A DNA stretch of 39,019 nt from an uncultured Pelagibacteraceae bacterium (GTDB lineage Bacteria > Pseudomonadota > Alphaproteobacteria > Pelagibacterales > Pelagibacteraceae), in contig CACPCL010000009.1 of NCBI GenBank assembly GCA_902632445.1, positions 1-39,019 on the forward strand, given 5' to 3'. Positions 24,139-33,678 of this stretch are shown here, piece by piece. The notes beneath the pieces are model-generated. The model did not search any database. It saw nothing but the letters and a program-made list of their open reading frames with translations, and was not told where the DNA came from. How positions within the stretch are numbered: the first letter of the stretch is position 1; each line of letters opens with the position of its first letter. Made by a program: the position numbers and the translations under genes.

Positions 24139-25317
24139 ATGAATGATAATAAAATAGTTATTACATCCGCTATAAGAACAGCAATAGGATCTCTAGGGAA
24201 ATCTCTTAAAAATACTAAAAGTACTGAACTAGGTTCTGAGGTAATCAAGGCCTCTATCAAAAACTCAAAATTAAAGAGTAACGAGATAGATGAGGTTATT
24301 ATTGGTCAAGTCCTGACAGGAGGATTAGGTCAAAATCCGGCGAGACAAGCTGCAATAAATTCTGGTATACCTAAAGAAAAACCTGCCTATATTGTCAACC
24401 AAGTTTGTGGATCTGGTATTAGATCAGTTGCTTCAGGTTTTCAAAGTATAAGATCGTCTGATTCTAATATTATTATTGCAGGCGGGCAAGAAAGCATGTC
24501 GTTAGCTCCACATGCAATTCATTTAAGAGATGGAAAAAAATTAGGTGACACTGAGCTTACTGATACCATGATAAAAGATGGTTTATGGGATGCATTTCAT
24601 GGCTATCACATGGGTGTAACTGCAGAAAACGTAGCTGAAAAATTTCAAATCACTAGGCAAGAACAAGATAAATTTGCTCTTAGATCTCAAGATAAAGCTC
24701 TAGAGGCTGTAAAAAATAAAAGATTTAAAGAAGAAATAATAGACTTTAAAATTAAATCAAAAAAATCAGAAATCGTTTTTAATCAAGATGAACATCCTAG
24801 AGAGGGTATAAATCTTGATGCTCTCTCTAGATTAAAACCTGTGTTTAAAAAAGACGGTACTGTAACAGCTGGAAATGCATCTGGCATTAACGATGGAGCT
24901 GCAGCAGTAACTTTGATGTCGAACAAAGAGGCTGAAAAGCGAAAAATTCAAAAATTGGTTACAATTAAATCATGGGCTAGTTGCGGGGTTGATCCTGCTT
25001 TGATGGGCACAGGACCAATTCCCTCATCTAAAAAGGCTTTAGATTTAGCAGGTTGGTCTGTTAAAGATGTTGACCTTTTTGAAATAAATGAAGCATTTGC
25101 GGCCCAAAGTATAGCTGTAATAAAAACTCTGTCTATACCTGAAGAAAAGACTAATGTTAATGGAGGAGCAATTGCTTTAGGTCACCCTATAGGAGCATCT
25201 GGGACAAGAATACTTGTTACTTTAATTCATGAAATGGTTAAAAGAGATGTAAGAAAAGGTTTAGCCACACTTTGTATTGGTGGTGGCATGGGAATAGCAA
25301 TGTGTATTGAACGATAA
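24139..25317 (+). CDS. phaA: Acetyl-CoA C-acetyltransferase (thiolase II, PhaA/AtoB type)
   Basis: This 392-aa cytosolic enzyme reversibly condenses two acetyl-CoA into acetoacetyl-CoA. Catalytic residues are all visible: C90 in 'VNQVCGSGIRSVASG', the His in 'GGAIALGHPIGASG', and C379 in 'LCIGGGMGIAM'. 'NEAFAAQ' is the conserved CoA-site motif. Length is exactly that of biosynthetic thiolases. The acetoacetyl-CoA synthetase 2 kb away would use or supply the same metabolite, linking ketone-body use to acetyl-CoA. The stop overlaps the start of a 44-aa membrane peptide (TAATG). The gene symbol reflects family; phaA and atoB are interchangeable here. Confidence 0.95.
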   Translation: MNDNKIVITSAIRTAIGSLGKSLKNTKSTELGSEVIKASIKNSKLKSNEIDEVIIGQVLTGGLGQNPARQAAINSGIPKEKPAYIVNQVCGSGIRSVASGFQSIRSSDSNIIIAGGQESMSLAPHAIHLRDGKKLGDTELTDTMIKDGLWDAFHGYHMGVTAENVAEKFQITRQEQDKFALRSQDKALEAVKNKRFKEEIIDFKIKSKKSEIVFNQDEHPREGINLDALSRLKPVFKKDGTVTAGNASGINDGAAAVTLMSNKEAEKRKIQKLVTIKSWASCGVDPALMGTGPIPSSKKALDLAGWSVKDVDLFEINEAFAAQSIAVIKTLSIPEEKTNVNGGAIALGHPIGASGTRILVTLIHEMVKRDVRKGLATLCIGGGMGIAMCIER

Positions 25318-25451
25318 TGGAAATATCTAAACCATATAAAGGCAAAGGCAAACGTAGATTAAAGAAAATGCCCTTTACTGTAAAAGGGTACATCCTTTAC
25401 TATGCTTTTTTTTGGGTTGTAATTATTTCTATTTACTTAGCTTACTATTAA
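25317..25451 (+). CDS. Small (44 aa) single-pass membrane protein coupled to the thiolase
   Basis: This short gene begins with an ATG that overlaps the thiolase TAA (TAATG), the same coupling seen at real gene junctions in this window. The product has a strongly basic N-terminal part (about eight Lys/Arg between residues 5 and 17) and one membrane helix from about residue 25 to 43, rich in aromatic and aliphatic residues ('YYAFFWVVIISIYLAYY'). Topology is probably N-in. No family is recognised. It may be a membrane anchor or regulator; function cannot be inferred. Confidence 0.6.
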   Translation: MEISKPYKGKGKRRLKKMPFTVKGYILYYAFFWVVIISIYLAYY

Positions 25452-25459
25452 TTATCTTT

Positions 25460-25478
25460 GATATTGATTATCATTAAA
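25460..25478. promoter_or_regulatory. Fur-box-like site 1
   Basis: The 19-base sequence GATATTGATTATCATTAAA matches the classical Fur consensus (GATAATGATAATCATTATC) at 15 of 19 positions by direct comparison. It lies 87 bases upstream of the 58-aa Cys-rich gene and 22 bases before a second site. Related regulators such as Mur share this consensus. Confidence 0.55.
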
Positions 25479-25500
25479 AGCGTTTTTAGGGATTTTTATT

Positions 25501-25519
25501 GATAATGATTTTCACTATT
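25501..25519. promoter_or_regulatory. Fur-box-like site 2 overlapping a candidate promoter
   Basis: The sequence GATAATGATTTTCACTATT also matches the Fur consensus at 15 of 19 positions. It overlaps a plausible promoter: -35 TTGATA at 25499-25504 and -10 TATACA at 25523-25528, separated by 18 bases. Repressor bound here would block RNA polymerase, giving expression under iron (or manganese) limitation. The only gene downstream on this strand is the 58-aa Cys-rich protein. Confidence 0.6.
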
Positions 25520-25564
25520 AAATATACAAGTTGAAATCAGTTCAAGAATATTTAGGCTATAGTT

Positions 25565-25741
25565 ATGAAAACTTATAGCTGTAAAAAATGTGGTTTAAAA
25601 ATACCTGTAACATGCTCTCAATGTGACAGGGTAATTAACATTAAAGTTGTAGGTGAAGGTTGTTTAGTAAAAGAGAACAAATGTTTAGATTGTACTACTG
25701 TTCCAATTATTAAAGACGTTTGCCTAGAACAAACTGCTTAA
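25565..25741 (+). CDS. Small eight-cysteine metal-binding-type protein (58 aa), likely iron-regulated
   Basis: This 58-aa protein is not recognised as a known family. It has eight cysteines, at 6, 9, 17, 20, 33, 40, 43 and 53, including three CxxC pairs. C6-x2-C9 with C17-x2-C20 looks like a zinc-ribbon or rubredoxin-like tetrathiolate site; C33, C40, C43 and C53 could make a second. There is no signal peptide, so it is probably cytoplasmic. Two Fur-box-like sites precede it, the nearer overlapping a candidate promoter, which suggests a role in metal limitation such as metal storage, delivery or Fe-S handling. It ends three bases before the convergent DUF4174-like gene. Zinc binding and iron control are inferences. 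Confidence 0.75.
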   Translation: MKTYSCKKCGLKIPVTCSQCDRVINIKVVGEGCLVKENKCLDCTTVPIIKDVCLEQTA

Positions 25742-25744
25742 ATT

Positions 25745-26284
25745 TTAGGCCCCCCTATTTTTTTTGTAGTTTTTCATCCATAAACTAAAAACTTTTATTG
25801 CATCTCTCATGTTTTTAGTTTTGTATGGGTGTTTTTTAGCTCTTCCCAACATAGTTGCTATTACATTTACTTGATATTTCAGGTCTCTGTTCTTTATGGT
25901 TTTAACTGTATGTAAGGCTTTTTCTTTATCCTTAAATCCCAAACCATAGGTAGTTGTTTTAGGATTATAATCAGAAAATAAAGATAAGTTTAATGGTTTA
26001 ATTTTTTTATTTTTAAGAACTTTAGACATCGGCATTTTATCTATTATCTTGAAAATTTTTTGACTATGAAAATTTTGAAATGTTTGTTTTTTTGTACCGT
26101 CAAATCCAAATAATTCTATCGAAAAATTATTACTAGTTTTCTTAAAGATCATTTTGACTACTCTTTTATGAAACTGCTTAATGTTACTTTGATAAAGCTT
26201 TTTTGCTTTTTTATATTTTAAGTTTTTATAATCAGGAGTTTTTATTAACAAAACTCTACATTTCCATCTATATTTTTTCATCAT
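25745..26284 (-). CDS. DUF4174-like protein with extra conserved-looking C-terminal region
   Basis: This 179-aa protein has no obvious signal peptide. Residues about 7-87 resemble DUF4174: an opening 'WKCRVLLIKTPDYKN', a central 'IELFGFDGTKK' and the closing 'FKIIDKMPMSK', matching that family's 'IDxMPMR' ending. Residues about 105-175 form a second part ('YGLGFKDKEKALHTVK', 'RAKKHPYKTKNMRDAIKVF') not explained by that domain. It is very basic overall. The role is unknown. The start may be either of two adjacent ATGs. It is divergent from the histone-deacetylase-family gene across 44 bases and convergent with the iron-box peptide gene. The DUF assignment is by eye and moderate. Confidence 0.65.
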   Translation of the reverse strand: MMKKYRWKCRVLLIKTPDYKNLKYKKAKKLYQSNIKQFHKRVVKMIFKKTSNNFSIELFGFDGTKKQTFQNFHSQKIFKIIDKMPMSKVLKNKKIKPLNLSLFSDYNPKTTTYGLGFKDKEKALHTVKTIKNRDLKYQVNVIATMLGRAKKHPYKTKNMRDAIKVFSLWMKNYKKNRGA

Positions 26285-26328
26285 TTGACCTCTTTAAAAA
26301 AGATAATATTACAGTATAGGTTAAAATT

Positions 26329-27225
26329 ATGGAATTACCTGTAATAAATCATCCAGATTATGTTGCTAAAATAAACGATGATAACAAATTTCCCATTAAA
26401 AAATTTGGTGCTTTAGCTAAATACCTTCTAGAAAAAGACGTAGTAAAAAAATTCCATATTCCAAAAGAATGTTCTTTTGAAACTCTAAAAACATCTCATT
26501 CTATAGAGTATATTAATCATATAAGGAATAAAACTTTGGATATCAAAGCTCAAAAGAGAATAGGATTTCCAATTAATGACAGTGTAGTAAAAAGATCTTT
26601 TGTTGCAACTGGAGGAACAGTTTTAGCAAGTAAATTAGCCTTAGACTCAAAACTTGCATGTAATACCGCAGGCGGTAGCCACCACGCTACTTTTGATTTT
26701 GGAGCTGGTTATTGCGTTTTTAATGACGTGGCAGTAGCAGCAAACTATTTAAAAAATAAAGGATACGCAAAAAAAATTCTTATAATTGATTTAGATGTTC
26801 ATCAGGGAAATGGAAATTCAGAAATATTTAAAAATGATAAAAATGTTATAACATTTAGTATGCATTGCGCTTCTAATTACCCAGCAAAAAAGTCGAAAAG
26901 CGATATTGATGTTGAACTTAAAGATCACATGGAAGATGGGGAATATTTAAATATTCTTCATAAAAATTTAAAAGAACTTAACAAAAATAAGTATGATTTT
27001 GTATTTTACGTAGCAGGAGTTGATATTCATTTTGAGGACCGATTAGGTAAACTTAAAATTACTGATGAAGGAATTAATAAAAGGGATCAAATAGTAATCG
27101 AAAATTTTTATTCTAGAAATATCCCTTTATGTGGTGTTTTAGGAGGGGGGTATAATAAAAGTTTTGAAAAACTTATTGAACTTCACTCAATGCTGCATAA
27201 AAATTGTGCTAATTATTTTAGCTGA
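26329..27225 (+). CDS. Histone deacetylase / acetoin utilisation (AcuC-like) family amidohydrolase
   Basis: This 298-aa protein belongs to the arginase-deacetylase fold. The tandem catalytic histidines are H118 and H119 in 'AGGSHHATFDFGAGYC'. Zinc ligands are D156 and H158 in 'LIIDLDVHQGNG' and D237 in 'GVDIHFEDRLGKL', and Y275 in GGGYNKSF stabilises the intermediate. All catalytic residues are present, so it should be active, probably on acetyl-lysine or acetylpolyamines; the substrate is unknown. Its 3' end overlaps acetoacetyl-CoA synthetase (convergent) by 13 bases. The cluster around it handles acetyl groups, a suggestive but unproven link. Confidence 0.93.
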   Translation: MELPVINHPDYVAKINDDNKFPIKKFGALAKYLLEKDVVKKFHIPKECSFETLKTSHSIEYINHIRNKTLDIKAQKRIGFPINDSVVKRSFVATGGTVLASKLALDSKLACNTAGGSHHATFDFGAGYCVFNDVAVAANYLKNKGYAKKILIIDLDVHQGNGNSEIFKNDKNVITFSMHCASNYPAKKSKSDIDVELKDHMEDGEYLNILHKNLKELNKNKYDFVFYVAGVDIHFEDRLGKLKITDEGINKRDQIVIENFYSRNIPLCGVLGGGYNKSFEKLIELHSMLHKNCANYFS

Positions 27226-29141
27226 GGAATATTCTCAAAATATTTTAAAGCCTCGGGATTAGCTATTGCCTCTTTGTTATTAATAGACTCCCCGTGAATT
27301 ACTTTTCTAACAGCTAGTTCAACTATTTTACCACTTTTTGTCCTAGGAATTTCTGGAACTTTGATAATTATTGAAGGAACATGTTTGGGAGAACAGTTTT
27401 TTCTTATTCTTGATTTAATTGATTTTATTTTTTCATCATTTAATTCCTCGTCATTTTTTGTTGTTACAAATAAAATTACCCTTACATCATCATTGTAATC
27501 TTGTCCGATAACTAAGCCCTCTGTAATAAAATCAATGTCTTCAACTTGTTGATAAATTTCTGCTGTTCCTATTCTTACTCCACCAGGGTTAAGAGTGGCG
27601 TCAGACCTTCCACGCATAATAAATCCATTATTCTTAGTTCTCTCAATAAAATCACCATGGTGCCAAATATTTTCAAATCTATTGAAATAGGCTTTATGAT
27701 ATTTTTGACCATTATCATCACCCCAAAATTTTACTGGCATGGAAGGAAAAGGTTTTTTAACTACCAACTCCCCCTTCTCTCCATCTTTTACACTTTTTCC
27801 TTTATCTGTAAAAACATCAACATCAATACCTAGGCTTTGGCCTTGAATTTCTCCCATGAATACATTTGAGTAAAGGTTCCCTAAAACTAAACAACCAACT
27901 AAATCTGTTCCTCCAGCAATAGATGCGAGATGAACATCTTTTTTTATACTATCGTATACATACTTGAAACTTTCCTCAGCTAAAGGAGAGCCTGTTGAAG
28001 TTATTATTTTTATTGAGCTTAGATCTAAGTTTTTACTATTATATTTTTCATTCTTTAAATGATCGATGTATTTAGCGCTTACTCCAAAAAGATTAATTTT
28101 CTTGTTTTGACAATACTCTAAAAGAACATCTATTTTTGGATAAACAGGTGCCCCATCGAATAAAAATATAGATGAGCCTGTTGCTAATCCTCCAACTAAC
28201 CAATTCCACATCATCCAGCCTGTAGTGGTATAGTAAAATAATTTTTCATCATCTCTGATATCGCAATGAAGCATAAATTCTTTGTTATGTTCGATTAAAA
28301 CATTCCCAGCTCCATGTGTTATACATTTAGGTTTTCCAGTTGTGCCGCTTGAAAATAAAATATAAATAGGATGATCAAATTCAAAACGTTCAAAGTTTTC
28401 ATCTACATCTGTTTGATCTATAACTTCATCAAAGTTTATATAATTATGAAGACTCTTCTCTTCTTTATTATTATACGCAAATACTAAAGTTTTTTTTATT
28501 GTAGGAATTTCCTTTAAGATATTCTCAATTTTTTCAAGAATATTTATTTTCTTACCATTGTAAAAATAGTGATCGCTGGTAATTAAAATACTTGGTTCAA
28601 TTTGTTTAAATCTATCAATAACTCCTTGTGCGCCAAAGTCTGGGGAACATGAAGACCAGATAATTCCATTTTTTGCGCAAGCTAAAAAACTAATAATAGA
28701 CTCAATTTTATTTGGAACATACGCTGCAACACGATCTCCTTTTTTCAAACCTATAGATTTTAAGTAATTAGAAAACTTACAAACTTTATTGTAAAGCTTA
28801 TCCCAAGAAATCTCCTCTTCAAACCCTTTCTCAGATAAAAAACTTATTGCAGGATCTGACGACTTTTTTTTAAGAATATTTTCTGCGTAATTTAATTTTG
28901 AGTCTGGAAAAAATTTAGTCTTATTAAAAATTTTATTATATTTAATTATTTCTTTTCCTTTGTCGCCTATAATTTTTGAATAATCCCAAAACTTCGACCA
29001 AAATTCTTCCGGATGATCTACCGACCATTTCCATAAAGTTTTAAAATTATAATTTGATTTATGATTTATAAATTTTGAGAAATCCTCAAGAAGAGATTCT
29101 TCTTTCCTGTTACTAGAGGGTTCCCACAAAAATTTTTGCAT
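27213..29141 (-). CDS. aacS: Acetoacetyl-CoA synthetase (acetoacetate-CoA ligase)
   Basis: This 642-aa ANL-superfamily enzyme activates acetoacetate with ATP and CoA. The P-loop-like A3 motif is 'ILFSSGTTGKPKCITHG'. The AacS-typical 'YTTTGWMMWNWLVGGLATG' follows, then the hinge and A8 segment 'MRGRSDATLNPGGVRIG', and the catalytic Lys in 'RTKSGKIVELAVRK' (A10). Length and these motifs separate it from acetyl-CoA synthetase. With the thiolase upstream it forms a route from acetoacetate to two acetyl-CoA. A perfect 8-bp hairpin immediately precedes its start codon. Confidence 0.95.
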   Translation of the reverse strand: MQKFLWEPSSNRKEESLLEDFSKFINHKSNYNFKTLWKWSVDHPEEFWSKFWDYSKIIGDKGKEIIKYNKIFNKTKFFPDSKLNYAENILKKKSSDPAISFLSEKGFEEEISWDKLYNKVCKFSNYLKSIGLKKGDRVAAYVPNKIESIISFLACAKNGIIWSSCSPDFGAQGVIDRFKQIEPSILITSDHYFYNGKKINILEKIENILKEIPTIKKTLVFAYNNKEEKSLHNYINFDEVIDQTDVDENFERFEFDHPIYILFSSGTTGKPKCITHGAGNVLIEHNKEFMLHCDIRDDEKLFYYTTTGWMMWNWLVGGLATGSSIFLFDGAPVYPKIDVLLEYCQNKKINLFGVSAKYIDHLKNEKYNSKNLDLSSIKIITSTGSPLAEESFKYVYDSIKKDVHLASIAGGTDLVGCLVLGNLYSNVFMGEIQGQSLGIDVDVFTDKGKSVKDGEKGELVVKKPFPSMPVKFWGDDNGQKYHKAYFNRFENIWHHGDFIERTKNNGFIMRGRSDATLNPGGVRIGTAEIYQQVEDIDFITEGLVIGQDYNDDVRVILFVTTKNDEELNDEKIKSIKSRIRKNCSPKHVPSIIIKVPEIPRTKSGKIVELAVRKVIHGESINNKEAIANPEALKYFENIPQLK

Positions 29142-29410: not shown

Positions 29411-32400
29411 ATGGCTCAGAATATTTCAGTTCCAGATATAGGTGATTTTAAAGACGTAGAAGTTATAGAGATTTTGGTTAAACCAGGCGATCAAATTAAT
29501 AAAAATGATCCGATTGTTACTATAGAAAGTGATAAATCTAGCGTTGAAATTCCATCACCATCTTCGGGTCAAATAAAAGATTTAAAAGTTAAAGTTGGTG
29601 ATAAAGTTTCAGAAGGTAGTTTGCTTGCTACTATAGAAAACGGCCAAGCTGCTCAAGCTCCAAAAAAAGTTAAAGAAAACAAAAAAGAAGAGATAAAAGA
29701 AACTCCCAAATCGAATGGTAATTTAAATCAAGTAAAACAAGTAAAAAAAGTATTTGCTGAACCTGCATCTAAAGATGATATTGATCCTATTGAAACAAAT
29801 GAATGGATAGAGTCTCTAAATTCAGTAATTGAAAATGATGGAGCTCCTAGAGCAAGTTACCTCTTAAACAAAGTTATAGATCAAGCGTATAAGTCTGGAT
29901 TAGTTCTACCTGATACTAGAACCACTCCTTACATTAATACTATACCTCCTGAAATAGAAGTTAAATCCCCAGGTGATCAAAATATAGAAAAGAAAATTAG
30001 AGCTTATGTAAGGTGGAACGCCGCCGCTATGGTCGTTAAAGCTAACAAAAAAAGTTCTGAGTTAGGAGGTCATATTGGAACTTTTGCATCTGCAGCAACT
30101 TTATATGATGTTGGAATGAACCATTTTTGGAGAGCAAAAAATAATAAATTTGGTGGAGATCTAATTTATTTTCAAGGTCACTCTGCTCCTGGAATGTATG
30201 CCAGAGCATTTTTAGAGGGAAGAATGACAGCCAAACAACTTGATGGTTTTAGACAAGAGGTTTCCTCAGGTGGTTTATCTTCTTATCCTCATCCTTGGTT
30301 AATGCCAAACTTCTGGCAGTTCCCAACAGTCTCTATGGGCTTAGGACCAATTATGGCCATTTATCAAGCACGTTTTTTAAAATATTTAATCAATAGAGGA
30401 TTAGTTAAAGATGAGGGAAGAAAGATTTGGGTTTTTCTTGGAGATGGTGAAATGGATGAACCGGAGTCTTTGGGTGCAATAGGTTTGGCTGCAAGAGAAA
30501 AGTTAGATAATTTAATTTTTGTAATAAATTGTAATCTTCAAAGATTAGATGGGCCTGTTAGAGGTAATGGTAAAATTATTCAAGAATTAGAAGGAAGCTT
30601 TAGAGGAACAGGCTGGAATGTAATTAAAGTTATATGGGGATCATATTGGGATCAATTGCTAGCAAAAGATAAAACAGGTTTACTGGTAAAAAGAATGAAT
30701 GAGTGTGTCGATGGTGAATACCAGGCTTTCAAGGCTAAAGGTGGTGAATATGTGAGAGATAATTTTTTTGGAAAATATCCAGAACTTAAAGAACTAGTTT
30801 CTTCAATGACAGATAAAGATATTTGGAGACTTAATAGAGGAGGACACGATCCACATAAAGTTTATGCTGCTTACCACGCTGCAATGCAACACACTGGAAG
30901 TCCCACAGTGATACTTGCCAAAACAATTAAAGGATATGGAATGGGTAAATCAGGAGAAAGTATTAATACTACCCACCAGCAAAAAAAATTAGATGAGGGG
31001 GATTTACTTTATTATAGAGATAGATTTGGAGTTCCTCTTACGGATAAGCAAGTTAAAAATATTGAATACTATAAACCAAGCGAAAATTCAGAAGAAATTA
31101 AGTATTTAAAAGAACGAAGAACTAAACTTGGTGGATTTATTCCAGAAAGATCTTCATTTGCAAAAGCAATCAAAGCTCCTCCAAAGGATATTTTTGATAA
31201 TTTTATGAAATCTACTGGAGATAAAGAAATGTCAACTACAATGGCACTTGTAAGAATGTTAACTGCTTTACTAAGAGATAAAAATTTATCACCTAGACTT
31301 GTTCCAATAATTCCAGATGAGGCAAGAACTTTTGGAATGGAAGGTTTTTTTCAAAAAATTGGAATTTATGCTCATGAAGGGCAAAAATATGAGCCTGTGG
31401 ATTCTGAGCAATTAAGTTCATATCGAGAGGATAAAAGCGGGCAAGTATTAGAAGAAGGTATTAATGAGTCTGGCGCTATGTCTTCTTGGATCGCTGCTGG
31501 AACTTCTTATACCAACCATGATTTAGAGATGATACCAATTTATATTTTTTACTCTATGTTTGGTTTTCAAAGAGTTGGCGATCTTGCATGGGCAGCAGGA
31601 GACTCTCAAGCTAGAGGTTTTTTAATTGGAGCAACTGCGGGAAGAACAACTTTAGCTGGTGAAGGACTTCAGCACCAAGACGGCCACAGTCACTTATTAG
31701 CGTCTAATATACCAAATTGTGTAAGTTACGACCCTACTTTTGCTTACGAAATGGCAGTCATACTTCAAGATGGTCTTAAACGTATGCATGAGAAAAAAGA
31801 AAATATTTTTTATTATATCACAGCAATGAACGAAAATTATGCTCACCCTCAAAAACCAAAAGGTAGTGATGAAGGAATCTTAAAAGGAATGTATTTATTC
31901 AAAGAAAATAATAATAAAGGAAAAACAAAAGTACAACTTCTTGGTTCAGGAACAATTTTAAGAGAAATAATTTCAGCTTCAGAAATATTATCAAAGGAAT
32001 ACGGAATAGACTCTGATGTATGGAGTGTAACAAGTTTTAATGAGTTAAGAAAAGATGGGATGGAAACTGAAAGATGGAATTTATTAAATTCGAGTAAAAA
32101 GAAAAAGTCTTATGTAGAAAAATGTTTAGAAAAAAGAGATGGTCCAATTATTGCTGCATCTGATTATACAAGAGCATTTTCTGATCAAATTAGACCATAC
32201 ACTGAAAAGCCATTTTATTCACTTGGAACTGATGGTTATGGAAGAAGTGATACCAGAAAAAATTTAAGAAAGTTTTTTGAAGTTGATAAAGAACATATTG
32301 TTGCCTACACATTAAGTGCATTAGCTAAAGAACAGTTAATAGGTTCTGAACAAGCTGAGAAAGCAATTAAGAAATATAAAATTGACAAAGAGAAAGAATT

Positions 32401-32416
32401 TCCTGCAAACTTATAA
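29411..32416 (+). CDS. aceE: Pyruvate dehydrogenase E1 (homodimeric AceE type) with an extra N-terminal lipoyl domain
   Basis: This 1001-aa protein is about 110 residues longer than the usual AceE. Residues 1-78 are a lipoyl/biotinyl domain, with the modifiable lysine K42 in 'ESDKSSVE'. A Lys-rich linker (about 79-120) follows, then a full homodimeric E1 from about residue 125. The thiamine-diphosphate site is 'GDGEMDEPESLGAIGLA' followed by 'NCNLQRLDGPV', nearly identical to the enterobacterial enzyme. E1 decarboxylates pyruvate and reductively acetylates a lipoyl group; here it could act on its own swinging arm as well as that of E2. The lipoyl domain is about 60% identical by eye to that of the adjacent AceF. 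No E3 gene is nearby. Confidence 0.96.
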   Translation: MAQNISVPDIGDFKDVEVIEILVKPGDQINKNDPIVTIESDKSSVEIPSPSSGQIKDLKVKVGDKVSEGSLLATIENGQAAQAPKKVKENKKEEIKETPKSNGNLNQVKQVKKVFAEPASKDDIDPIETNEWIESLNSVIENDGAPRASYLLNKVIDQAYKSGLVLPDTRTTPYINTIPPEIEVKSPGDQNIEKKIRAYVRWNAAAMVVKANKKSSELGGHIGTFASAATLYDVGMNHFWRAKNNKFGGDLIYFQGHSAPGMYARAFLEGRMTAKQLDGFRQEVSSGGLSSYPHPWLMPNFWQFPTVSMGLGPIMAIYQARFLKYLINRGLVKDEGRKIWVFLGDGEMDEPESLGAIGLAAREKLDNLIFVINCNLQRLDGPVRGNGKIIQELEGSFRGTGWNVIKVIWGSYWDQLLAKDKTGLLVKRMNECVDGEYQAFKAKGGEYVRDNFFGKYPELKELVSSMTDKDIWRLNRGGHDPHKVYAAYHAAMQHTGSPTVILAKTIKGYGMGKSGESINTTHQQKKLDEGDLLYYRDRFGVPLTDKQVKNIEYYKPSENSEEIKYLKERRTKLGGFIPERSSFAKAIKAPPKDIFDNFMKSTGDKEMSTTMALVRMLTALLRDKNLSPRLVPIIPDEARTFGMEGFFQKIGIYAHEGQKYEPVDSEQLSSYREDKSGQVLEEGINESGAMSSWIAAGTSYTNHDLEMIPIYIFYSMFGFQRVGDLAWAAGDSQARGFLIGATAGRTTLAGEGLQHQDGHSHLLASNIPNCVSYDPTFAYEMAVILQDGLKRMHEKKENIFYYITAMNENYAHPQKPKGSDEGILKGMYLFKENNNKGKTKVQLLGSGTILREIISASEILSKEYGIDSDVWSVTSFNELRKDGMETERWNLLNSSKKKKSYVEKCLEKRDGPIIAASDYTRAFSDQIRPYTEKPFYSLGTDGYGRSDTRKNLRKFFEVDKEHIVAYTLSALAKEQLIGSEQAEKAIKKYKIDKEKEFPANL

Positions 32417-32418
32417 TT

Positions 32419-33678
32419 ATGCCTGATCTTAAAATTACAGTTCCTGATATGGGTGATTTTAAGGATGTAGAAATTATTGAAGTTCTTGTAAAAGAAGGTC
32501 AAACAATTATTAAAAATGACTCTTTGATTACTCTTGAAAGCGATAAATCTAGTGTCGAAGTTCCATCAACACAATCAGGTACCATAAATAAAATTAATGT
32601 TAAAGTTGGTGATAAAGTCAATCAAGGTGACCTTATTTTAACTTTAAAATCATCTGAAAAGGTAGAGCAAGTAAAAGAGCCTGCTACAAAAACACCAGCA
32701 AAAAAAATAGATGTAAAAAAAGATCAGCCAAAAAAGATTAAAGCTCCTCCTCCTGCAGCTGTCAGGACAAGTAAAACAGGAGCAAAATTAGCAAGTCCTA
32801 AAGTAAGAAAATTCGCAAGAGAATTAGGAGCAAATGTATTAGAAATTCCTGGTTCTCAAAGATCGGGTAGAGTCTCTGAAGAAGATGTAAAAGAATTTGT
32901 TCGATCGCAAGTAACTGTCAATAAAGGAGCGGTTGAAAAAAAAGAATATAAAGAGGAGTACACGCACGAGGAATTTGGTCTAATTGAAGTAAAAGAAATT
33001 CCCAGAGTAAAAAGATTGTCTGGTCCACACTTAGTAAGGTCTTGGACTGAGATACCACATGTTACTCAACATGATGAGGTGGACGTAACCGAGATGGAAC
33101 AATTCAGATCCTCGTTGTATGATTACTATTCTGGTGATGTTATCAAAGTAACTCCGTTGGCATTTATTGCGAAAGCTTTAGTTAGTGCTTTAAAAGAGTT
33201 TCCTAATTTTAATGCTTCTATTGATCCAAATCAAAATAAGATTGTATATAAAAAATATTTTCACATAGGTTTTGCAGTTGATACACCTCATGGATTAATG
33301 GTGCCTAAAATCAGGGATGTCGATCAAATGAGTATAAAAGAAATTGGAGAAGCATTAAAAAAAACCAGTAAGCTTTGTAGAGAATTAAAAATCGATAAAA
33401 AAGAGTTTTTTGGTGGATCGATGACAATTTCAAGTTTAGGTGGGATAGGTGGCACATTCTTTACTCCAATAATTAATCCACCAGAAGTGGCTATTCTTGG
33501 AGTGGGAAAAACTTTTGATAGACTAGTAAAAATAAAAGAGAAAATTGTTTCAAGAAAAATACTTCCTTTATCATTGTCTTACGATCATAGACTAATTGAT
33601 GGAGCTGAGGGTGCAAGATTTTGCGTTTATTTAGGAAAGTGCCTTGGCAAAGACTTCGCTTTTAAACTTGCTGTTTAG
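32419..33678 (+). CDS. aceF: Pyruvate dehydrogenase E2, dihydrolipoamide acetyltransferase
   Basis: This 419-aa core enzyme moves the acetyl group from lipoamide to CoA. A single lipoyl domain (residues 1-79) has lysine K43 in 'ESDKSSVE'. After an Ala/Pro/Lys linker comes the peripheral-subunit-binding domain (about 122-160, 'ASPKVRKFARELGANVLEI'). The catalytic domain (about 190-419) ends with 'SYDHRLIDGAEGARF', containing the catalytic His and Asp. It starts two bases after aceE, so the two subunits are made together. Having only one lipoyl domain here is notable given the second one on E1. Confidence 0.97.
   Translation: MPDLKITVPDMGDFKDVEIIEVLVKEGQTIIKNDSLITLESDKSSVEVPSTQSGTINKINVKVGDKVNQGDLILTLKSSEKVEQVKEPATKTPAKKIDVKKDQPKKIKAPPPAAVRTSKTGAKLASPKVRKFARELGANVLEIPGSQRSGRVSEEDVKEFVRSQVTVNKGAVEKKEYKEEYTHEEFGLIEVKEIPRVKRLSGPHLVRSWTEIPHVTQHDEVDVTEMEQFRSSLYDYYSGDVIKVTPLAFIAKALVSALKEFPNFNASIDPNQNKIVYKKYFHIGFAVDTPHGLMVPKIRDVDQMSIKEIGEALKKTSKLCRELKIDKKEFFGGSMTISSLGGIGGTFFTPIINPPEVAILGVGKTFDRLVKIKEKIVSRKILPLSLSYDHRLIDGAEGARFCVYLGKCLGKDFAFKLAV

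Follow-up and report, generated by a model that had tools for sequence, protein, structure and literature searches.

The lipoyl domains (LDs) of the pyruvate dehydrogenase (PDH) complex usually reside on its acetyltransferase component, E2, and the exceptions named in the relevant part of PMC7873978 place them on E3 in Alcaligenes eutrophus, Neisseria meningitidis and Mycoplasma hyopneumoniae; the text of the same article also assigns an LD to PdhA of Zymomonas, whereas the title that it cites (FEMS Microbiol Lett 1999) names E1beta. In the E. coli complex, as the pertinent section of PMC8421416 describes it, the peripheral subunit-binding domain of E2 binds either E1 or E3, and the LDs swing between the active sites. 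Here we describe an aceE-aceF locus in a 39,019-nucleotide stretch of DNA (the window; contig CACPCL010000009.1 of assembly GCA_902632445.1) from an uncultured Pelagibacteraceae bacterium of SAR11, a group introduced in PMC10030771 as the most abundant heterotrophic bacterioplankton in the oceans. Its aceE encodes a homodimeric E1 with an LD at the N-terminus, and we consider it quite probable that E1 of the SAR11 PDH not only decarboxylates pyruvate but also bears a swinging arm, and that it holds the sole arm where E2 has lost its LD.

Zymomonas mobilis is likewise an alphaproteobacterium described as having an LD on a PDH E1 subunit, but its E1 is a heterotetramer (alpha2beta2, PdhA/PdhB) whereas that of SAR11 is the homodimeric AceE. 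The first part of NCBIfam NF008854, the family of E1beta proteins with an LD, matches SAR11 LDs. The Zymomonas E2, for its part, retains an LD. M. hyopneumoniae resembles SAR11 in having a PDH LD off E2, and N. meningitidis and A. eutrophus in having one on another component of the aceE-aceF operon, but in all three the component named in that part of PMC7873978 is E3 (PdhD in M. hyopneumoniae); in SAR11 the LD is on E1, E2 may lack its own, and none was found on E3 in any of 12 genomes, six of which encode an AceF without an LD. Actinobacterial OdhA, as treated in a section of PMC8146983, is, like SAR11 AceE, an E1 bearing a domain that is usual on E2; OdhA, however, carries an acyltransferase and relies on the lipoyl groups of E2p, whereas SAR11 AceE carries an LD and no acyltransferase. 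The original prediction for this locus had listed E2 and E3 as the known sites of extra LDs, a list that the E1beta of Z. mobilis shows to be incomplete. LDs on E1beta and E3 are therefore already known; a homodimeric E1 with the sole arm is apparently new, since no published report of a homodimeric E1 with an LD, or holding the only arm, was found among the titles listed, nor any LD work on Pelagibacter or SAR11 by title and abstract opening, in searches that left the subscription literature mostly uncovered. According to PMC10030771, aceEF occurs in SAR11 subclades I, II, IIIa and LD12, with IIIa genomes carrying several copies of aceE; its main text never uses the word 'lipoyl'.

The aceE gene occupies positions 29411..32416 of the plus strand (ATG at 29411, stop codon ending 32416) and was assigned from its open reading frame, Pfam and NCBIfam. 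Residues 4-75 of the 1001-aa product match Biotin_lipoyl (PF00364; E 2.7e-21, 75.6 bits against a cut-off of 22.1), and residues 120-999 match TIGR00759 aceE with 1445 bits against a cut-off of 860. The usual homodimeric AceE is about 890 aa long and has no LD, a form from which the window protein departs both in its length and in its LD. The LD spans residues 2-78 (29414..29644), with the predicted lipoylation site K42 (codon 29534..29536) within IESDKSSVE. A Pfam scan of AceE gave no match to the acyltransferase domain PF00198, and hence no E1-E2 fusion of the OdhA type. Only two bases separate the aceE stop from the start of aceF (32419..33678, plus strand; 419 aa), whose product contains a single LD (Pfam 5-76; residues 3-79, 32425..32655) with K43 within LESDKSSVE, the E3-binding or peripheral subunit-binding domain (PF02817; residues 124-158, 32788..32892) and the catalytic domain (PF00198; residues 192-409, 32992..33645). 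AceF reaches 424 bits with TIGR01348 (PDH E2, long form), below the cut-off of 552, and this is still its best family by bits. Compared without gaps, the two LDs of the window are identical at 45 of 74 residues and 156 of 222 bases. The original prediction had described this architecture correctly, including both lysines, the two-base gap and, by eye, the very count of identical LD residues.

Within SAR11 the E1 LD is a constant feature of the operon. All 134 aceE genes that stand in an aceE-aceF locus and have a readable N-terminus encode it, in a set in which some genomes may be counted twice. Set aside from this count were L161 (cut by a contig end) and L049 and L165, which are separate AceE paralogues without an LD (identifiers in L and G denote loci and genomes); repeats of other loci (L002, L004, L034, L035, L050-L053) and loci with fewer than 850 aligned E1 residues, L162-L164 among them, were left out. 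The window's genus (37 genomes, including the window's) yielded 26 full-length AceE matches that start at residue 1-8, and two further genomes (G011, G022) hold AceE pieces starting at residue 1. AceE was present in 179 of 247 genomes of the order sample, with every match listed starting at query residue 1-8; it was found in none of the 24 genomes of the order's other family (f2), and G037, G039 and G045 of that family had neither AceE nor PdhB over the cut-off. Among 30 genomes from 13 further genera of the window's family, 29 encode AceE and 11 of the genera have the LD; in the remaining two (g465, g468) the aceE start lies off the contig.

Beyond SAR11 no LD was seen on AceE in the samples examined. 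AceE was detected at 1e-60 in 11 of 385 genomes of the class sample: the five from the window's family all carry the LD, and the other six, read directly, do not. In the phylum sample (AceE in 161 of 398 genomes) two of the matches listed reach into the LD, both from the window's family, and the others start at residue 99 or later, while of the 98 plasmid records that match AceE, the 30 listed start at residue 111 or later. Because the 1e-60 limit, which applied to the order, class and phylum samples and to the further genera, can hide an LD that aligns as a separate piece, 27 unfused non-SAR11 loci (L036-L048, L054, L055, L176-L187) were read directly; none has an LD upstream of E1. Long open frames that might have concealed an LD-fused AceE outside SAR11 were rejected as such, as G130, G244, G493, G701, G632 and L176-L187 have no LD upstream and their LD matches lie downstream of the E1 body. 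The best 80 AceE matches in the named genome collection were all SAR11 records. Restriction to SAR11 accordingly holds for the sampled genomes, this best-80 contig scan and the plasmid search.

The E1 LD also appears intact throughout. The lysine of the ESDK motif is kept in 141 of 141 SAR11 E1 LDs (139 counted by script; in L015 and L069, whose N-termini are clipped, ESDK was read by eye) and in 90 of 94 E2 LDs. The E1 domain is, as predicted, complete and not degenerate in relatives. Across ten loci from the window's genus and near relatives, the E1 LD had a median ratio of nonsynonymous to synonymous rates (dN/dS) of 0.031, compared with 0.102 in the E2 LD and 0.022 in the opening part of the E1 body; these ratios are rough because synonymous sites are near saturation. 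Judged from these coding sequences, purifying selection is stronger on the E1 LD than on the E2 LD. These observations bear on the idea that the E1 LD is a passenger, or a structural or regulatory part that docks E1 or E3 for example, with the E2 LD as the catalytic arm. Such a role would suit the 89 of 131 loci in which E2 has at least one LD, the existence of LD-free AceE paralogues and the fact that lipoylation of E1 is predicted only; it leaves the invariant lysine and the stronger selection on the E1 copy unexplained, and it cannot hold for loci whose AceF has no LD. We regard it as distinctly unlikely.

An AceF without any LD is encoded in 42 of the 131 SAR11 loci. Over the 134 loci, a single LD on E1 was paired with one on E2 in 80, with none in 42 and with two in 2; a double LD on E1 was paired with one on E2 in 6 and with two in 1; in the remaining 3, E1 had one LD and E2 lay off the contig. 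In the named genome collection alone, 28 of the 78 loci whose contig includes AceF had the LD-less form. The suggestion that lipoyl arms are divided between E1 and E2 therefore understates the situation. The short AceF starts near the aceE stop and runs directly into the subunit-binding domain. Four such proteins scanned with Pfam contained PF02817 and PF00198 only, all 42 keep the subunit-binding motif and the active-site His (36 as HRxxDG, six as HRxxNG), and that of L085 has TIGR01348 as its best family by bits, with 334 bits (below the cut-off of 552). The HRxxNG form is found in L098, L107, L118, L121, L151 and L152. We also note that aceF lies in the frame of aceE, parted by one or two stop codons, in 23 of the 42 LD-less loci (L085 and L136, for example), many of them close kin, and that the same arrangement occurs in 10 of 89 LD-bearing loci, plus one with a gap of nine.

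These loci come largely from single-cell or metagenome assemblies, a source in which short AceF genes might be assembly or gene-start artefacts. We find this scarcely credible: the short frame begins at the aceE stop or close to it and has a short N-terminus of its own, aceE is intact on the contig, none of the 42 short AceF frames is cut by a contig end, and they occur on many branches, including genomes that are 97-99% complete in 5-20 contigs (G871, G910, G900).

A quick tree of E1 bodies, with 55 dereplicated SAR11 and 13 outgroup rows (L161, L054 and L055 also being left out), has the LD on the E1 of all 55 SAR11 rows, the mapping that the original prediction had proposed as a check. On the same tree the presence of the E2 LD requires 10 changes, a count that carries no direction, so that E2 changed repeatedly while the operon copy of E1 kept its LD. 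The deepest SAR11 clade (7 rows) and all 13 outgroup rows have the E2 LD, and in a tree of LDs the grouping of those from E2 largely mirrors that of E1, with L153 and L154 as exceptions. For these reasons loss is the likely direction, and from the sequences compared here E2 is likely to have lost its LD in a number of SAR11 lineages. In L153, L154, L156 and L161 a second AceF LD is without the lipoyl lysine, with IEDEEN, IEDDEN, IEDDES and IEDEES, respectively, in place of ESDK; given that loss, this second domain may be decaying or re-used.

If AceF has no LD, another protein might supply one. A biotin/lipoyl profile run over 16 genomes with an LD-less AceF detected AceE in each of them; nine also gave an E2 frame of 438-459 aa, 14 a frame of 119-167 aa that is putatively AccB, and one (G818) a frame of 79 aa. 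The last was rejected as a free lipoyl protein, being a 72-residue protein with the biotin-type motif EVMKTE. The E2 frame of about 440 aa is SucB in both genomes tested, where it adjoins lpd. In the 12 genomes inspected for E3, the best Lpd frame measures 466-482 aa and is matched from model position 1 or 2. No PdhB over the family cut-off (NF008854) was found in 15 genomes; a 363-aa frame of G807 reaches 285 bits, under the cut-off of 454. A lipA gene was found in 11 of 12 genomes, over the cut-off in 10; the lipA match of G861 (C1:940635-941508, in a 1-contig genome) is split across two overlapping frames, possibly by a frameshift. Within the limits of genome completeness, these searches turned up no further PDH LD, which leaves that of E1 as the only PDH arm detected where AceF is without one.

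These results frame a second alternative, in which the LD-less lineages form a mixed complex with SucB, the E2 of 2-oxoglutarate dehydrogenase, and borrow its arm, in the manner of the lipoyl borrowing described for actinobacterial OdhA in part of PMC8146983. An LD-bearing SucB-type E2 is indeed encoded beside lpd in G807 and G813. Borrowing would, however, leave the complete E1 LD, its kept lysine and the lengthening of the linker behind it (see below) without a reason, and the SucB LD of the window genome averages 37% identity to E1 LDs; we consider it very unlikely.

The E1 LD is followed by a Lys/Glu-rich linker (residues 79-122, 29645..29776) and then by the E1 body (29777..32413), which opens with a DIDPxET segment that aligns to the N-terminus of E. 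coli E1. Chain residues 6-883 of PDB 1l8a align to AceE 122-998, and 9h1n_C, a 49-residue E1 fragment in a solved structure, aligns to AceE 122-164; the segment just after the linker is presumably the one that docks on E2. The LD itself is predicted to be beta-rich (pLDDT 69-83 per ten-residue block), and residues 79-129 have pLDDT below 50 in a whole-protein model that is poor. The linker contains no start codon, and the only in-frame ATG, GTG or TTG codons among residues 2-140 are TTG at 22 and 71, which makes an LD-free E1 produced from a start inside the linker unlikely.

The length of this linker varies with the state of E2. Where measured it is 43-85 residues long, with a median of 60 residues alongside an LD-less E2 (20 dereplicated rows) versus 52 alongside an LD-bearing E2 (29 rows); this first measure left out eight loci without a strict DIDPxET (L065, L096, L100, L107, L118, L121, L128, L160). 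An alignment-based measure over 53 rows was then used for path-disjoint pairs on the tree, drawn at random 500 times with unsupported branches included. The longer linker belonged to the LD-less member in all 10 pairs in 188 draws, in 9 pairs plus a tie in 192, in 9 against 1 in 64, and in 8 against 1 plus a tie in 56. In 444 of the 500 draws the LD-less side was therefore the longer in 9 or all 10 of the independent pairs. A helix-like motif, approximately P-x-TEKII-x-EAE, recurs in the otherwise variable linkers of many rows outside the window's genus, for example in L080, L101 and L153, and was not seen in those linkers of the genus that were inspected.

These findings suggest how the complex might operate. 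E1 would reductively acetylate the lipoyl group of its N-terminal domain or of its dimer partner's; the linker would then bring the acetyl group to the E2 catalytic trimer, after which E3 would reoxidise the arm. With E1 docked to E2 through the segment that follows the linker, an arm anchored beside the docking site could extend as far as the E2 core. Where E2 has an LD, the arms of E1 and E2 may work in parallel; where it has none, the E1 arm would do the whole job, with its linker lengthened. For the lineages with an LD-less E2, we think it probable, if with a little more reserve than for the dual role of E1, that the usual coupling is reversed, the only arm being on E1, E2 serving as a bare docking and catalytic core, and the length of the E1 arm compensating.

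Several points weigh against this interpretation. Lipoylation of K42, self-acetylation, docking and channelling all go beyond what domain content can tell. The near saturation of synonymous sites is such that 10 of 45 E1-LD pairs have no finite dS, and 17 of the 65 inner branches of the quick E1 tree are open. Many genomes are incomplete, which limits the statement that there is no other LD, and two of the 16 genomes with an LD-less AceF (G810, G820) show the AceE LD alone. When linker length was tested with a binary threshold on supported branches, no opposite pair emerged, but the test is under-powered and significance was out of reach; L153 and L154, moreover, have long linkers (64 and 63 residues) despite two E2 LDs. 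The structure model of whole AceE is poor, with a mean pLDDT of 48.1 from a shallow alignment. Finally, some SAR11 genomes encode an additional, LD-free AceE (L049 in G158, L165 in G861, and in G844 and G883), which indicates that the LD is not required by every SAR11 E1-like protein, and further genomes of the order sample list two AceE matches each.

No aceF was found beside the LD-free paralogues L049 and L165. The second AceE-like genes of L049, L165, G844, G883 and G860 (the last with an unreadable start) all occur in genomes with a two-LD AceE, and L165 scores higher with the exception model AKGDH_not_PDH (1373 bits, cut-off 1408) than with aceE (1340 bits).

In the usual PDH the arms are on E2 and its core fixes their number; SAR11 appears to have placed an arm on E1 and, on several branches, to have given up that of E2. 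In the lineages with an LD-less E2, the number of arms would then be set by the amount of E1 bound and not by a fixed E2 core. Sister lineages of SAR11 that differ in one domain would offer a natural test of how the position and length of the arm affect substrate channelling, and labelling SAR11 PDH as ordinary aceEF hides what may be a changed machine.

As to where the E1 LD came from, a tree of 77 rows, chosen from 122 LDs with SucB and three lysine-less E2 LDs left out, puts the SAR11 E1 and E2 LDs together on one side of a split (support 100/99) and every outgroup LD, whether of E2 or of E3, on the other; the split recurs with a Shimodaira-Hasegawa-like approximate likelihood ratio (SH-aLRT) support of 96 in a quick tree of all 122. 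Within the SAR11 group, E2 LDs sit among E1 LDs, and neither a single clade of E1 LDs (p 0.39) nor one of E2 LDs (p 0.46) is rejected. Joining the E1 LDs with the LDs of L036 is rejected (p 0.035), and joining them with all outgroup E3 LDs strongly so, the groups for all these p values having been named after the trees were seen. The best reading of these trees is a duplication shared with AceF that would be older than the spread of the SAR11 genera; the trees fit either gene as the donor, although in the 13 outgroup operons AceE is LD-free and AceF LD-bearing. A recent duplication in the window genome was rejected, as the E1 LD is present in the window's genus and in nearly all of the further genera sampled. 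Of the original proposal that the E1 copy arose by local duplication from E2, the common origin therefore stands and the recency does not, and the tree with both copies, which the proposal had itself called for, does not settle the direction from E2 to E1.

The E1 LD could instead have come from outside, for example from the E3 LD of a donor aceE-aceF-lpd operon, with no duplication shared with AceF. Of the 13 outgroup operons, 11 contain another LD-bearing frame (a dihydrolipoyl dehydrogenase in all four tested), which implies that LDs move about in such operons; the window has no lpd beside aceEF. In addition, the tests above are post hoc, the outgroup E3 LDs form no group, and an AT-rich make-up could draw SAR11 LDs together. 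We nonetheless judge an outside origin unlikely, given the 100/99 separation of the SAR11 LDs from every outgroup E2 and E3 LD and the rejection of the groupings with L036 and with the outgroup E3 LDs.

The structure model of an LD-less AceF, also built from a shallow alignment, has a mean pLDDT of 63.7. The window genome itself comprises 0.84 Mb in 33 contigs and is 80% complete. Upstream of aceE, positions 24139-29141 of the window encode an acetyl-CoA acetyltransferase-like protein, a partly DUF4174-like protein, a protein with a histone-deacetylase fold and an acetoacetate-CoA ligase, the gene for the last lying on the minus strand and pointing away from aceE.

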